DNA of 39,057 nucleotides from a bacterium. Its GTDB lineage: Bacteria; Patescibacteriota; Patescibacteriia; JAHIZJ01. Of this stretch, positions 28,965 to 35,148 are shown in pieces. The notes beneath the pieces were generated by a model. It searched no databases and had not been told where the DNA came from. It saw only the letters and a program-made list of their open reading frames with translations. The translations under genes were made by a program, and so were the position numbers. Positions within the stretch are counted from its first letter, which is position 1; every line of letters starts with the position of its first letter. The stretch lies in assembly GCA_030699685.1 (NCBI GenBank), contig JAUYLJ010000013.1, positions 1 to 39,057 on the forward strand, in the 5' to 3' direction.

Positions 28965-29840
28965 CTATGAGCGAGTAAATATCCAGTTGAAGTATGTCGT
29001 GACGCCGGCCGGTGATGCCCCAAAGTCCGAAGAATCGGCATGATCGATCAGCGATGCCTCTGTTCTGGCATCAAACAGTGAAAGTATGAGTGCGAGTCCG
29101 GGCGCTGAGTCAAAATGCTCGTCGCCCTGTCGCAGGACGGTATCAATGTCGAATTCCCTCACAAACTTTTCCGTCTCCGCGTCATACCTTGCCGCTTGCT
29201 CTCTTGCCTGGTAGTGAGAGAAATCAATCGCGCCGATAATAAGCGTCGTATCGGTACTATTTGACCGTATTAAATCGCGCAAGGCGGCAATGTCTTCCCT
29301 TTCCAGCGAATATAAAAGCAATAACGGAACCACTTTAGCCCGCGGAAATGTCGATTTGAGATATGGCATCATTAGCGCGGCCGCGTGATCCTCCGCTACA
29401 GCCGAATCGTTGATCTCCACCAGATCCGACTGAAACAAGGCATCAACCAACACGGCATCAGTTTCCAGGACGCCGAATGGCGTTTCCCAGTTTTGACGCG
29501 CTGTCAGCACCGCCCTATTCCCAGCGTGAAAATGGTTCGGCCCAATCAGAATGATAGTGCTCGGCTGATTCGCGTGACTGACACAATCAAAAAATTGGCG
29601 TATAAGTGGGGAAGCAAGATCGTGATGGGAGGTGATACCGGCTCGAATTGTTTCGTCGCACGGTATTGCCGAGTCAATTGTTTTCGCGGCAGCAAAAAAT
29701 TTTTCTGGAATAAATAGACTGGGATTTATCCGCTGAGAACCCAGGCCAGGCAAATCACCCGTGCTGGAAAAAACCGTCCAGCCCGAGACCGCCAAAGCCA
29801 CTGCGCCGATAAGCATCAAAGCTGGCCGTATCATTCTCAT
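28965..29840 (-). CDS. MEMO1 / AmmeMemoRadiSam system protein B family, N-terminally membrane-anchored
   Basis: GITSHHDLASPLIRQFF, IILIGPNHFHAGNRAVLTARQNWETPFGVLETD, IGAIDFSHYQ are MEMO motifs with His ligands; N-terminal TM. Confidence 0.9.
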   Translation of the reverse strand: MRMIRPALMLIGAVALAVSGWTVFSSTGDLPGLGSQRINPSLFIPEKFFAAAKTIDSAIPCDETIRAGITSHHDLASPLIRQFFDCVSHANQPSTIILIGPNHFHAGNRAVLTARQNWETPFGVLETDAVLVDALFQSDLVEINDSAVAEDHAAALMMPYLKSTFPRAKVVPLLLLYSLEREDIAALRDLIRSNSTDTTLIIGAIDFSHYQAREQAARYDAETEKFVREFDIDTVLRQGDEHFDSAPGLALILSLFDARTEASLIDHADSSDFGASPAGVTTYFNWIFTRS

Positions 29841-29847
29841 ATTGCGC

Positions 29848-32800
29848 TTACTCGATGTTTACCGTCGTCCTTGGGCTGATGCTGATGCTGTCTTTGTTTC
29901 GGAAACCCTGGATCAAAGGAGTGTCGGCGACAAATGTCCCTTGGCTGCTGACCCTGGCGTAATACTCAATCAAGCCGCTCGAGCCTTTCCAAGAACGAAA
30001 ACCGATTTTCTTGCCATCAACAAGATAAGGCCAAGAAGTCTGATAGTCGCCGTATTGGAGACGCGAAAATGGACGAGTCACCATGCTTAAACCCGAAGGC
30101 AGGAAATCGACAATCTGATAGGAATCATCCACGGCGTTACCGTTGATATACGGCCGTAAGGTAACATGGACAAGATCCCCTTCTGAAAACTGGTCAGTGA
30201 CTGTTCCGTTCAGCGTCCGGTAGACCCTCTCCAACCCGATCAGACCATCTTGATTGACGTCATCGGCGCTGATTGGGGCGGTAAAGTAGCTGATCACGCC
30301 AACAGACCCTGACACGTTTGAAAATTGGATTGAAGCAAGTTCTTCAGGTGAAAGCGAAAGAGCGTATCTTTCTTCCCGCTCGAGGGTGACGTTTTCAGAC
30401 CGATTACCGGCTGTGAAGGTAAATGAGACCGGATCACCGCTGGCATCAGGAATTGCCGAGTCAAGGTAAAGCAGATTTTCAAGATTGATCAGTATGTCGG
30501 TGCCCTGGCGCTCCCGGATATAGCTGTACAATCCTGCTTCCTCGGCACTGTCCAAGCGATTGGCCAATATTGCCGCCATGATGCTGTATTTCAAGTAGTC
30601 ATCCTCGTCGTTTCCAAGCACGACTCGCAAATCCGGCTGACTCTCTTCACCATAGCTGTTGATGATACCAAGATACAGCGTCCTGGCATACTCAGCCGCA
30701 CCCATCTTTTCCATCGCCAGCGCCACATAAAGACTCAATTCATCAGGAATTTCATTATTTTCTATGACCTGATTCAGTATGGTAAGTACCGGCTCATCCA
30801 GACTGGCCAGGCCGTACAAAGCGATAACAATTTCTTCAAGGCTGGCATTGTCGTTGGCCAAAGCGCCCTCAAGATAGGCGCGCATAGCTGTTTGGTCAAA
30901 TTGGTCAGCCGCCAGATCGGCAAACAACGCTGTCAGATGGAGTTCGGCTGACGCATACGGCAGCAGCGCCACTCCGCCTTCAGGCGTCTGAAACTGGCCG
31001 CCGTCAAAATTAGCCACTTCGAAATTTTCTTCAAAATACTGATTAAGCAAACCGCTAGCCAAGCTTCGAGAATAGCTTTGGTCGACGCGGTCTCCCCAAA
31101 CATACATAAGATTGAGCAGGTCTCGGTAATAGTAGCCCCGGTTTTTGTCGAGGAAAACCAATGTTGTCTGACCGTTTTCGGATCCTATGATTTCCACGTC
31201 CCCGTTCAAGGTATAGTAGTTGGACTGCTCGGTTTCAAAGTAACCTTCTTTGACAATTATTGTTTTCAAAACAGTGTCTTCCGCCCCATCATGTTCGACT
31301 GTAAAGTAAACGTCATGCCTGCCAACAGGCAATTCAGGCAAACTAAACCGAATAGGCTGGTAGGCGCCGCCTTGTTCGGTGGTGTCGTAGCCAAGTGACT
31401 CAATAGTGAGATTCGCCGTCACGCTGTCGCCATCCCCTAGTCCGTTGCCATAGGCAAACACTTGAACAATAGGCCGGTCACCAGCCAGATACTCATCCGA
31501 GAGGTTGCTTTCGGCGAATATCGGCAGACTGACAGGCACCTGCGCGGTTGTCGAACCGACTTCCAGCCGCGAGCTGACGCCCTGGGCGGTCACCCTCCAG
31601 GAGGTAATATTGTCGGGCAATGTGAAAGAAACGGAGCCTTGGCCCGCCACTCCGGTCTCTATCTCGCGAAACAGTACCGTATCCTGAAATTCTCTTCTGG
31701 CTCCGGCTTTGTCGTTGTGGACGTAGACTCCGGAAGCGAAAAAAGTGTGCTGGTCCTCTATGTGAAGATTGTACACCGAGACTGGACCAAAATGCCTGGA
31801 AATGTCCGTTACCACAAACTCTGTACCGCTCTCGTCAAGAAGCGTATCGCCCACGGTGATTGTCTCGGCCGGATGCCACCCTCCATTCACCCAAAGTATG
31901 TGATTGGGGGTGATGTTCAGCCGATCATTGATAGTAAGATATTCGTTGACCGTATGCTCAAAACGCTGGCTGACTTTGGCCGGAACGAGTTTGGGATCCT
32001 CGGATGAAAGACGCGTCAGTATGTATTCGCCGGGTTGTACGTCTTCAATCTCCTTTTTCGTCCCGTCTGCCAAGGTGACGAGCGTGTTTTCCAGAAAGCA
32101 GCCGCCAAACTCCGCTCCTAGCGACTCCAATCTCTGTTTTTCATGGGATACAAATGTGCGCAATATTCCGCTAGAAACGTTTTTGTATACTTCTGCCAGC
32201 GGATCCACGTCCGAGTCACGCAAGGCGTAAATCGCTTCGTCGACCAAGTTGAGATTGACCCTGGCCGGTACGGGACCTCCTTCGGGCCCGGTCGTGGAAA
32301 CGGTCAAGGTAACTTCGTCGCCTGGTGCGTAGCGGTTTTGATTAGTGCCGACGGAAATGTCTAGTTGGCGCTCGGCCATATCAAACGTAACGACGGAATC
32401 CCCCTCACCGTTATAATAATCTGTCGCCTCATACTGCGCGCCATCAAACCAGACTCCGCCCAGATAGGTATTAGGTATGTTGTCACCTGAGAATGTAAAA
32501 GAATATTCTGGTTCCGTCTGGACCGCATGATCCCGCAATCCGCCGCCTGCCTGGTAAAAAAGATAGCGATTTGGATCAAGGTTTTCCGCCAACGGAGTCT
32601 CGCCGGTGACTAGCGCGACACGCACTTCCTCTCCTAATCCGTAGACGGCATCCTCATCCAGATTTTCGATGTGGATGAAACCATCGGCGCTGTATTCGTA
32701 AAATCTATATCCTGACCACAGATAGACCGAACGTGTTACTGTCCTGCCTTCATTGTCCGAAAAATTGAGGCCAATTTCATACGAAGCGTTTTCCCCCATC

Positions 32801-35148
32801 TCAAATTCAAACAAAGCTTCACCCGACTGATTCGTCGTAACGACAAAATCATCAACCGGCACCAAACGACGTTCGTAGCGATAGGTCTTGTGGTTTACTT
32901 TGTTGATGAAATCATAGTATTCCCCCGTCTCAATTTTGTCGTATTTTACTTCGCCTATATCTCCTTTTATCTCCTTTCCCTGCACCGGATCGGCCACAAT
33001 GACGTCTTCCCAAATGCTGAAGTCTTCGGCATTCATTGCTTCCAAATCGAGAAAGTTCAGCGCCAGATTCAGGCGCGCGGCCGTACCATTTACGTCGGTG
33101 TCGGCAGCGAGCCACATGTCAGAAGGAAACACCCTGTACTGAAGCGTTGAAGAAATATCGCTGGAGATCGCGGAATCGGAATAGACGGAAAGATAATTAT
33201 ACGACGAAACGTTGTCATAGAGATCCGACTTGAGGACAATCTCCGCCTTTCCATTTGTATCGGTTGTTATTTCACCCGATCCGGAATTTGAACTGTAAGA
33301 CATGCTGACGTTCGGCGCGGACGTGCCTTCAAAAAATTCCGAACGGATATTCACCGTGTTGTTTTCGTTTTGAACAATTACTTTCTTTTCCGCGTCCAGA
33401 TTGATGGAATAGCTCGGCTTGACGTATTTCTCGACATACACACTGGAGCTGGCAATCTCCTCGCCCGCCACCGCAATCTTCAGAGTATAATATCCCGGTA
33501 CGAGATTCGAAAAAGCAATTTCGCCTATAAACGTCGCGTCATCGGACACCTCCACGTCAGCCTGGGCGATGTTGACGCTTTCACCGCTGTAACTATCATA
33601 GGCAAATCCCTCAAGAACGGCCTTCACGGATTCGGGCGCAGGGCTGCCGTCTCTCGGTTTGACTAAGCCCCAAAACTTGACCGTGTCTGTCTTTGAATAT
33701 ATCGGCCGATCGACATATACATATTTCCAGTACGCTTCGGTGAGACGCGTGCCGCCCAATTCATAGTAGGGCTGAGGTTGTGACGCGGGCACGACGGTAT
33801 TTTTTCCCGTCGGACTGCTGACAACGAAGATATGCGAACGTTCCGGACTAAGCGACGTGAGCTCCGCGGGGGTTTCAAATTTCGCGATACCCTGGGTGTC
33901 GGTCTCGGCGTCCAGGGATAAACCTGGCGAAGTAATCTTCGCGCCTGAAACCGGACCTTGAGCGCTGACGTCATTCACCCAAAGCAGCGTTTCAGTTGTT
34001 GATAAAGCGAGATAAGATGCCTGATTGCTCACCTGAATCCATGATTGGACTGTGGCATCACTAGCAACAGTGTTAATCACATAGTAGCCGTCAGCCAGCG
34101 TTTCGGGCAAGACGATAAAATACCGGAAATTTGATTCTTGCGGGGCGGCGGTGAACCTCGCTACTTCCGTCAAACCTTCGGTTGGCACGGTGAAGTTCCG
34201 CTGGGCATAGAAAGCCCAAGCCGGGTATTCCGAGTATTCCGCAAAGGAATCACGAAACTGATCAAATCCCGGAAACTGGTAGACAACGAATTCCCGCTGC
34301 CTATCGGACGGATAACTGTATACTTCGAGAACCGGTTCACGGTCGCTGGTAAAGTCGAATAATGATTCCTGAAAACTGAAATACTCATAGTCGTTAGAAT
34401 ACTGCGAGTTGCTTGTCTCGAAACGAAATACGTAATCCTCTGCCAGCGTTTCTTCGCTTCCTTCAAACGGCAAGCCGGCTTTAATTGTCACTGTATACAA
34501 TGTTTCGGGTCGTAGTCCCGAGGGAACAAACACCGCTGTTCTTTTGTGCTTTTCAAATCTGCCGTCCGCTTCGGGAGAAATGTCGAAGTATTCTTCAAAA
34601 TCATAATAAGCATCGTTTTGAAACGTTACCTCAATGCCGCTGTTGACTGGGACATTCGTGGAGGTGTCGCGAGGCAAAGACCCGGCCACTTTCACGATTT
34701 CTTTTACCTGGTATGCCCAGCGATACTCTCGTTCCTCGTCAGTTTCTGCCGTATCGTCGCTTTTCGCCTCGGTAGTAGATATTGAAAACTCATAGATTTC
34801 ATTTTCTGTTAGCGGCGATTCCGGCGTCAAAGTAAATGTGTTTGCGGAAGTCTCCCGCACGGCAAACTCAAGCGCTGGTTCGATGTTTAAACTTTCCGCC
34901 ACTTCCACGTCGGTAATATCTTCTTTGCTGGTCAAGATAAACGAGCTGTCAACGTCCACCCCAAGGTTGTCACGCGACTCAGGAATCAGTGCGAAATTAT
35001 CCTCAGCGTATGCCGGACTGACCGGAATAAACGGCTTGTCCGGTTCTTTGTCCGTAGCGTTTCTACCGCTCAATCCATACCACGCGCCAGCTCCAACTAT
35101 TATTACAGCTCCAATCCCAAGCGCAACCCATTTCGCTGGAAATTTCAT
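29848..35148 (-). CDS. Alpha-2-macroglobulin family protein with an embedded Hint (intein/BIL-like) domain, membrane-anchored
   Basis: N-terminal TM, Ig-like domains, MG-like repeats (YVYVDRPIYSKTDTVKFWGLVK; NRYAPGDEVTLTV...VNLNLVDEAIYAL), post-bait motif REFQDTVLFREIETGVAGQGSVSFTLPDNITSWRVTAQGVS, alpha-hairpin thioester-like region, C-terminal receptor-like domain. Confidence 0.93.
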   Translation of the reverse strand: MKFPAKWVALGIGAVIIVGAGAWYGLSGRNATDKEPDKPFIPVSPAYAEDNFALIPESRDNLGVDVDSSFILTSKEDITDVEVAESLNIEPALEFAVRETSANTFTLTPESPLTENEIYEFSISTTEAKSDDTAETDEEREYRWAYQVKEIVKVAGSLPRDTSTNVPVNSGIEVTFQNDAYYDFEEYFDISPEADGRFEKHKRTAVFVPSGLRPETLYTVTIKAGLPFEGSEETLAEDYVFRFETSNSQYSNDYEYFSFQESLFDFTSDREPVLEVYSYPSDRQREFVVYQFPGFDQFRDSFAEYSEYPAWAFYAQRNFTVPTEGLTEVARFTAAPQESNFRYFIVLPETLADGYYVINTVASDATVQSWIQVSNQASYLALSTTETLLWVNDVSAQGPVSGAKITSPGLSLDAETDTQGIAKFETPAELTSLSPERSHIFVVSSPTGKNTVVPASQPQPYYELGGTRLTEAYWKYVYVDRPIYSKTDTVKFWGLVKPRDGSPAPESVKAVLEGFAYDSYSGESVNIAQADVEVSDDATFIGEIAFSNLVPGYYTLKIAVAGEEIASSSVYVEKYVKPSYSINLDAEKKVIVQNENNTVNIRSEFFEGTSAPNVSMSYSSNSGSGEITTDTNGKAEIVLKSDLYDNVSSYNYLSVYSDSAISSDISSTLQYRVFPSDMWLAADTDVNGTAARLNLALNFLDLEAMNAEDFSIWEDVIVADPVQGKEIKGDIGEVKYDKIETGEYYDFINKVNHKTYRYERRLVPVDDFVVTTNQSGEALFEFEMGENASYEIGLNFSDNEGRTVTRSVYLWSGYRFYEYSADGFIHIENLDEDAVYGLGEEVRVALVTGETPLAENLDPNRYLFYQAGGGLRDHAVQTEPEYSFTFSGDNIPNTYLGGVWFDGAQYEATDYYNGEGDSVVTFDMAERQLDISVGTNQNRYAPGDEVTLTVSTTGPEGGPVPARVNLNLVDEAIYALRDSDVDPLAEVYKNVSSGILRTFVSHEKQRLESLGAEFGGCFLENTLVTLADGTKKEIEDVQPGEYILTRLSSEDPKLVPAKVSQRFEHTVNEYLTINDRLNITPNHILWVNGGWHPAETITVGDTLLDESGTEFVVTDISRHFGPVSVYNLHIEDQHTFFASGVYVHNDKAGARREFQDTVLFREIETGVAGQGSVSFTLPDNITSWRVTAQGVSSRLEVGSTTAQVPVSLPIFAESNLSDEYLAGDRPIVQVFAYGNGLGDGDSVTANLTIESLGYDTTEQGGAYQPIRFSLPELPVGRHDVYFTVEHDGAEDTVLKTIIVKEGYFETEQSNYYTLNGDVEIIGSENGQTTLVFLDKNRGYYYRDLLNLMYVWGDRVDQSYSRSLASGLLNQYFEENFEVANFDGGQFQTPEGGVALLPYASAELHLTALFADLAADQFDQTAMRAYLEGALANDNASLEEIVIALYGLASLDEPVLTILNQVIENNEIPDELSLYVALAMEKMGAAEYARTLYLGIINSYGEESQPDLRVVLGNDEDDYLKYSIMAAILANRLDSAEEAGLYSYIRERQGTDILINLENLLYLDSAIPDASGDPVSFTFTAGNRSENVTLEREERYALSLSPEELASIQFSNVSGSVGVISYFTAPISADDVNQDGLIGLERVYRTLNGTVTDQFSEGDLVHVTLRPYINGNAVDDSYQIVDFLPSGLSMVTRPFSRLQYGDYQTSWPYLVDGKKIGFRSWKGSSGLIEYYARVSSQGTFVADTPLIQGFRNKDSISISPRTTVNIE
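31714..32100 (-). other. Hint domain (aa ~1017-1145) within the A2M-like protein
   Basis: CFLENTLVTLADGTKKEIEDVQPGEYIL (block A, Cys1), LNITPNHILWVNGGWHPAETITVGDTLL (block B TxxH), VYNLHIEDQHTFFASGVYVHN (blocks F/G, terminal His-Asn). Confidence 0.93.

Follow-up and report, generated by a model that had tools for sequence, protein, structure and literature searches.

The window, by which we mean the whole stretch of 39,057 nucleotides that was analysed, encodes on its reverse strand an exported protein of the alpha-2-macroglobulin (A2M) family with an intein-like Hint domain in its interior. Positions 31714-32100, which an earlier note on this DNA had assigned to the Hint, turned out to be its exact extent, from C1017 to N1145. 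The features discussed below are the following:

28965-29840, reverse strand: Memo-family gene (PF01875), separated from the A2M stop by 7 bases; adjacency kept in most relatives
29848-35148, reverse strand: host gene, exported A2M-family protein of 1766 aa, intact open reading frame
31075-31092, reverse strand: DRVDQS (aa 1353-1358), a degenerate thioester site standing where CxEQ would be, aligned by eye with GCVEQT
31468-31680, reverse strand: A2M domain (aa 1157-1227), after the bait region; Pfam PF00207, E 2.9e-8
31693-31713, reverse strand: C-terminal flank DKAGARR (aa 1146-1152), with Asp1146 at +1 and Lys at +2
31714-32100, reverse strand: Hint domain resembling type A bacterial intein-like (BIL) domains (aa 1017-1145, 129 aa); Pfam PT-HINT, AlphaFold2, Foldseek
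31714-31719, reverse strand: terminal His-Asn (aa 1144-1145, with N1145 at 31714-31716); present in 60/60 homologues
31900-31911, reverse strand: block B TPNH (aa 1080-1083); TxxH in 60/60
32098-32100, reverse strand: catalytic Cys1 (C1017); kept in 60/60 homologues
32101-32118, reverse strand: N-terminal flank GAEFGG (aa 1011-1016), Gly at -1; low-confidence linker in the model
32221-32649, reverse strand: A2M_BRD, the bait region domain (aa 834-976); Pfam PF07703, E 8.9e-9

The host protein is composed of Big_5, an MG2-like domain (a weak Pfam match), A2M_BRD, the Hint, the A2M domain and a TED-like region without the thioester, and its N-terminal anchor, as read from the sequence, is hydrophobic. 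Membership of the A2M superfamily is supported by the MG domains and by the BRD and A2M segments recognised by Pfam, as well as by fold matches to C5, A2ML1, ECAM and CD109. The window protein nevertheless departs from a protease-trapping A2M, since its TED has no CxEQ and the Hint stands where a variable, protease-sensitive bait would be expected; the scan for the CxEQ motif was negative for the window protein and likewise for most of its relatives.

The position of the Hint in the A2M fold is defined by several lines of evidence. The A2M_BRD match extends to the last position of the Pfam profile, the PF00207 match starts at profile position 1, and by these boundaries the Hint sits exactly between the two domains. 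In a region profile the part before the Hint aligns with C5 residues 431-610 and the part after it with C5 785-848 and human A2M 721-814; this is the site that the bait region occupies in A2M and C5a in complement C5. The AlphaFold2 model of aa 640-1330, calculated from a 39-row alignment, has a mean pLDDT of 80.9, with most Hint blocks at 81-94, while values under 50 are confined to no Hint block but mark the linkers on either side of it (model residues 359-375 and 508-511), which lie between strands of the MG domain. The packing of the domains in this model is unreliable because its pTM is 0.45. Foldseek searches with the model retrieved complement C5, C4b, A2ML1, CD109 and E. coli A2M, and among the bacterial structures 5a42, 4u48 and 4rtd. 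The placement of a Hint in the bait loop, proposed earlier from the sequence, is thus real: the model agrees with the alignment of the profile to human A2M and C5, and the recurrence of the domain at this site in 60 distinct homologues, with every catalytic residue kept, goes beyond chance.

The Hint itself belongs to a known kind of domain. The Pfam search that had been suggested for it returned PT-HINT (PF07591) as the best family, on aa 1024-1146, with 51 bits against a cut-off of 27.7. Modelled alone, the domain reached an AlphaFold2 pLDDT of 90.7, and the best Foldseek matches of this model were Tetrahymena BIL2 (6y75/6tmm, TM 0.85) and C. thermocellum BIL4 (TM 0.80). A sequence profile compared with the solved structures placed the latter (CthBIL4, 2lwy) first, with E 5e-20 and a match reaching its terminal His-Asn, so the BIL-like resemblance noticed at the outset is borne out by the closest solved structures. 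Type A BILs are Hint folds of about 130-150 aa without an endonuclease, with Cys1, TxxH and His-Asn and no need for a nucleophile at +1, and all of this is found here. The domain does not qualify as a canonical (class 1) intein: the +1 Cys/Ser/Thr is missing in 59/60 homologues, one having Ser, and there is no homing endonuclease or sign of homing, for which, as the note had seen, 129 aa leave no room. Nor is it a Hog domain of the Hedgehog type, since it is internal and its His-Asn is invariant. Six other Patescibacteria proteins (L028, L029, L031, L037, L052 and L054) contain a Hint that stops some 10 residues short of the C terminus, a Hedgehog-like layout, and some of them carry Ser instead of Cys1.

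The same architecture recurs among the genomes examined, 192 of the class and 380 of the phylum. After removal of duplicates there were 60 distinct Hint-bearing A2Ms, all with the Hint at the same site and all from Patescibacteria except for one from a record titled WOR-1; one further protein, the Hint of which is masked at its C end (L113), was left out of this number. A further scan, with the pattern Fx[LV]PDN[ILV]TSW lying outside the Hint, covered bacteria and archaea at one genome per species. Of the 271 relatives, the best 80 comprised 39 with a Hint, from Patescibacteria-type or taxonomically unlabelled bacterial records apart from the one titled WOR-1, and 41 without, from Bacillota, Chloroflexota, Acidobacteriota and other Patescibacteria. 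Further Hint carriers among the remaining 191 are judged unlikely because the Hint-bearing matches rank at the top. The WOR-1-titled protein (L080) may be a product of mis-binning; no second Hint-bearing A2M was found in 74 genomes of that phylum, and we rejected the idea that it represents a wider WOR-1 trait.

Conservation of the catalytic residues, on which the earlier proposal of an active domain depended, is complete: Cys1, TxxH and His-Asn are present in 60/60 Hint-bearing A2Ms, and a search of all collected proteins with a Hint profile, independent of the C/HN pattern, detected no degenerate Hint in an A2M. Within the Hint, Cys1 is the sole cysteine in 59/60 of the proteins, and in the window protein it is the sole cysteine of all 1766 aa, so that an intrachain disulfide role is excluded there. 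The residue at -1 is Gly in 56 cases, Ala in 3 and Thr in 1. At +1, where Asp had correctly been read in the window protein (Asp1146), we find D in 22, E in 19, Q in 7, A in 6, N in 4 and K and S in 1 each, and never Cys or Thr. Each of the 60 proteins has a Lys at +1 to +3 after the His-Asn (31705-31713 in the window), which is not part of the AExGGEGG motif of the Hint-less relatives. Mean identity is 0.44 in the Hint and 0.32 in the flanks, and the dN/dS of the Hint, for those pairs that are close enough to compute it, is 0.02-0.11, in most cases no higher than in the flanks, which marks strong purifying selection on the domain. A dead structural insert, in which the Hint fold would serve only as a spacer or a binding domain, is very improbable in view of the three motifs kept in 60/60 proteins and the lack of any degenerate copy.

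The Hint-less relatives hold a conserved AExGGxGG loop at the bait site. In Bacillota it reads GGAE[KQRSM]GG-EGG..R.[DN]F and in Peribacteria GGAEKGG-GGGDD.RSNF, whereas the Hint-bearing site reads GAE.GG-[C...HN]-[D/E]KGG..R..F; the thioester-type relatives without a Hint possess a similar glycine-rich loop. The empty site is therefore clean, AExGG being followed directly by [E/D/G]GG in one group and by C..HN and then [D/E]KGG in the other. This comparison indicates that the acidic residue at +1 is often the host's own and that a religated product would resemble the Hint-less protein.

When the host tree is computed without the Hint sequence, at least 12 switches between presence and absence are needed to explain the distribution of the domain. 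At the same time Hint and host distances are correlated (Mantel r 0.62; 0/2000 permutations as high), suggesting that the two sequences were to a considerable extent inherited together. The Hint is found both in thioester-less A2Ms and in a distant subfamily with CxEQ, where four proteins combine the thioester motif with a bait-loop Hint: G195 (L266), G171 (L067), G442 (L267) and G220 (L269). The Hint tree has too few columns for telling one origin from several. Two independent origins of the A2M Hint are not claimed, since the AU test does not reject a single clade of all 60 members (p 0.81); a transfer of the Hint between thioester-type and thioester-less A2Ms is suggested by the tree and is not claimed either (a clade of the five thioester-type Hints is not rejected, p 0.75). 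In the unconstrained tree two proteins with longer Hints of 139-141 aa at the same A2M site, G229 (L270) and G210 (L271), group with phage Hints. On viral contigs (L162-L235) many large phage proteins have Gly-flanked Hints (GGGG-C..VHN-AGLG or KGGG) close to their N terminus; two such proteins checked with PHROGs are tail proteins J.

These patterns bear on the possibility that the Hint is a tolerated passenger, an old non-homing BIL for which the bait loop is a harmless place to cut or splice and which is conserved because it needs to exit. The patchy presence, the clean empty sites, the missing endonuclease and the occurrence of related Gly-flanked Hints close to the start of phage tail proteins J all agree with such a history. 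It speaks against a passenger that the Hint of the A2M protein is the only one in the entire 1.15-Mb genome of the window, and that the domain is kept under strong purifying selection across deep Patescibacteria lineages without homing; we regard this explanation as possible but tentative.

The precedent for the chemistry comes from type A BILs that end in His-Asn and lack a +1 nucleophile; these form a thioester at the N end, cyclise Asn at the C end and splice by aminolysis, with cleavage dominating (PMC4031507). The earlier expectation that normal splicing would not occur without Cys, Ser or Thr at +1 needs correction for such domains, as they can splice through aminolysis of the thioester (PMC4031507). 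An invariant Cys1 together with an invariant His-Asn suggests chemistry at both Hint ends, and with the type A precedent this favours self-excision, the loop being either nicked or religated. We consider it probable, on the strength of these sequence features, that an active type A-like BIL nested in the A2M bait loop excises itself in cis after folding and leaves the A2M nicked or religated. Cys1017, aided by the block B TPNH, would attack the Gly1016-Cys1017 bond and give a thioester; Asn1145 would cyclise beside His1144 and cut the chain before Asp1146; and the freed amine of Asp1146 could then attack the thioester, joining GAEFGG to DKAG. The ligated product would contain the tryptic junction peptide LESLGAEFGGDK. 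Alternatively, hydrolysis of the thioester would leave two chains, with the MG domain keeping them together. Ligation and nicking alike would produce a short glycine-rich loop as in the Hint-less orthologues. The analysis establishes the domain, its position, the invariance of its catalytic residues, the purifying selection, the clean empty site and the closest relatives; that the reaction runs, where it does so, how ligation and nicking are balanced and whether the cell benefits are inferred, as conserved residues are no proof of a reaction on the exported protein. Cleavage may also take place at one Hint end only, and the invariant Lys near the His-Asn suggests that the C-terminal flank has some property for which simple excision gives no account.

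This Lys, which always follows the His-Asn, would fit an acyl transfer in which the Gly-Cys1 thioester is passed to an outside nucleophile, such as an amine of a target or of the cell's own surface, either replacing the A2M thioester or acting in a Hedgehog-like way. The thioester would be accessible with Gly at -1 in 56/60 proteins, and the window protein has no CxEQ of its own. Acyl transfer alone, however, has no need of the invariant His-Asn, four Hint-bearing A2Ms keep their CxEQ, and thioester-less Bacillota relatives exist without a Hint, which makes this reading improbable. The reactive thioester that the note had envisaged as a substitute for that of A2M is accordingly not favoured, given the His-Asn invariant in 60/60 and the CxEQ retained in four proteins; as a general replacement thioester the Hint was rejected after the CxEQ scan had found the motif in these four.

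Self-excision from the bait loop might also have a regulatory meaning. In complement the bait/anaphylatoxin loop is where the fold is triggered. The Hint could act as an autocatalytic bait, maybe a triggered one, the cleavage of which frees the loop and starts, without a foreign protease or convertase, the conformational change that ordinary A2Ms undergo when a protease cuts them. Its exact bait/C5a position, the flexible linkers on both sides and its occurrence at the same site in thioester-type and thioester-less A2Ms are consistent with such a self-activating switch. In E. coli A2M activation is driven by untethering of the cut bait region (PMC4498604), and excision of the Hint could be the trigger in the same sense. 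On the other hand, there is no CxEQ thioester in the window protein that such a change could release, and among the best 80 of the 271 relatives the Memo gene is adjacent in 31/41 Hint-less as well as 27/39 Hint-bearing loci, so that the host role is not obviously Hint-dependent; on balance we find the switch rather unlikely. Since the switch and the passenger explanations both accept self-excision, our confidences in them overlap and do not sum to one.

The Memo gene downstream is a probable operon partner of the A2M gene, and being common beside the Hint-less A2Ms too, this operon is independent of the Hint. In some relatives the Memo gene is fused to PGA_cap, and a gene for an ECF-type sigma factor is often found upstream of the A2M gene. 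A Memo gene directly downstream of a thioester-less A2M also occurs in Bacillota and Chloroflexota. The A2M-Memo pairing looks like an uncharacterised envelope operon.

The natural roles of BILs are largely open, and here one such domain is retained across a superphylum at a single functional position in a single protein family. The broader picture of a self-cutting macroglobulin across Patescibacteria, in which a BIL at the bait/anaphylatoxin position removes itself on cue and thereby activates the fold from within, is in our estimate doubtful. The system nevertheless offers a way to test whether the A2M/complement fold uses a self-processing domain as its molecular switch; the hosts are mostly uncultured, reduced bacteria, and many natural Hint-less orthologues can serve as controls.

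In the literature searched (mostly outside the subscription papers) there was no report of a Hint or intein associated with an A2M, or of intein-like domains in the Candidate Phyla Radiation. The domain is of a known kind; what is new is its host context, which is conserved. Type A BILs such as C. thermocellum BIL4 (2lwy) are alike in size, in Cys1, TxxH and His-Asn, and in having neither a +1 Cys/Ser/Thr nor an endonuclease; the window Hint differs from them in its host and its site, one defined A2M bait loop kept over a superphylum. Tetrahymena BIL2 (6y75, 6tmm), the nearest fold, is likewise a Cys1-type BIL; it belongs to the BUBL1 locus, is eukaryotic and lies in a protein context other than that of the A2M Hint, namely the ubiquitin-like loci. 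The PT-HINT domains of polymorphic toxins (PF07591) belong to the same family, while the window Hint is internal in an A2M and no toxin follows it. With ECAM/YfhM and the Salmonella A2M the window protein has the MG/BRD/A2M architecture in common, but these possess a disordered protease bait and CxEQ, whereas it carries a Hint in the loop and no thioester. In complement C3/C4/C5 a separately folded domain (the anaphylatoxin in C5) occupies the equivalent position of the fold and is excised; the Hint inserted here is unrelated to anaphylatoxin and would remove itself, with no convertase.
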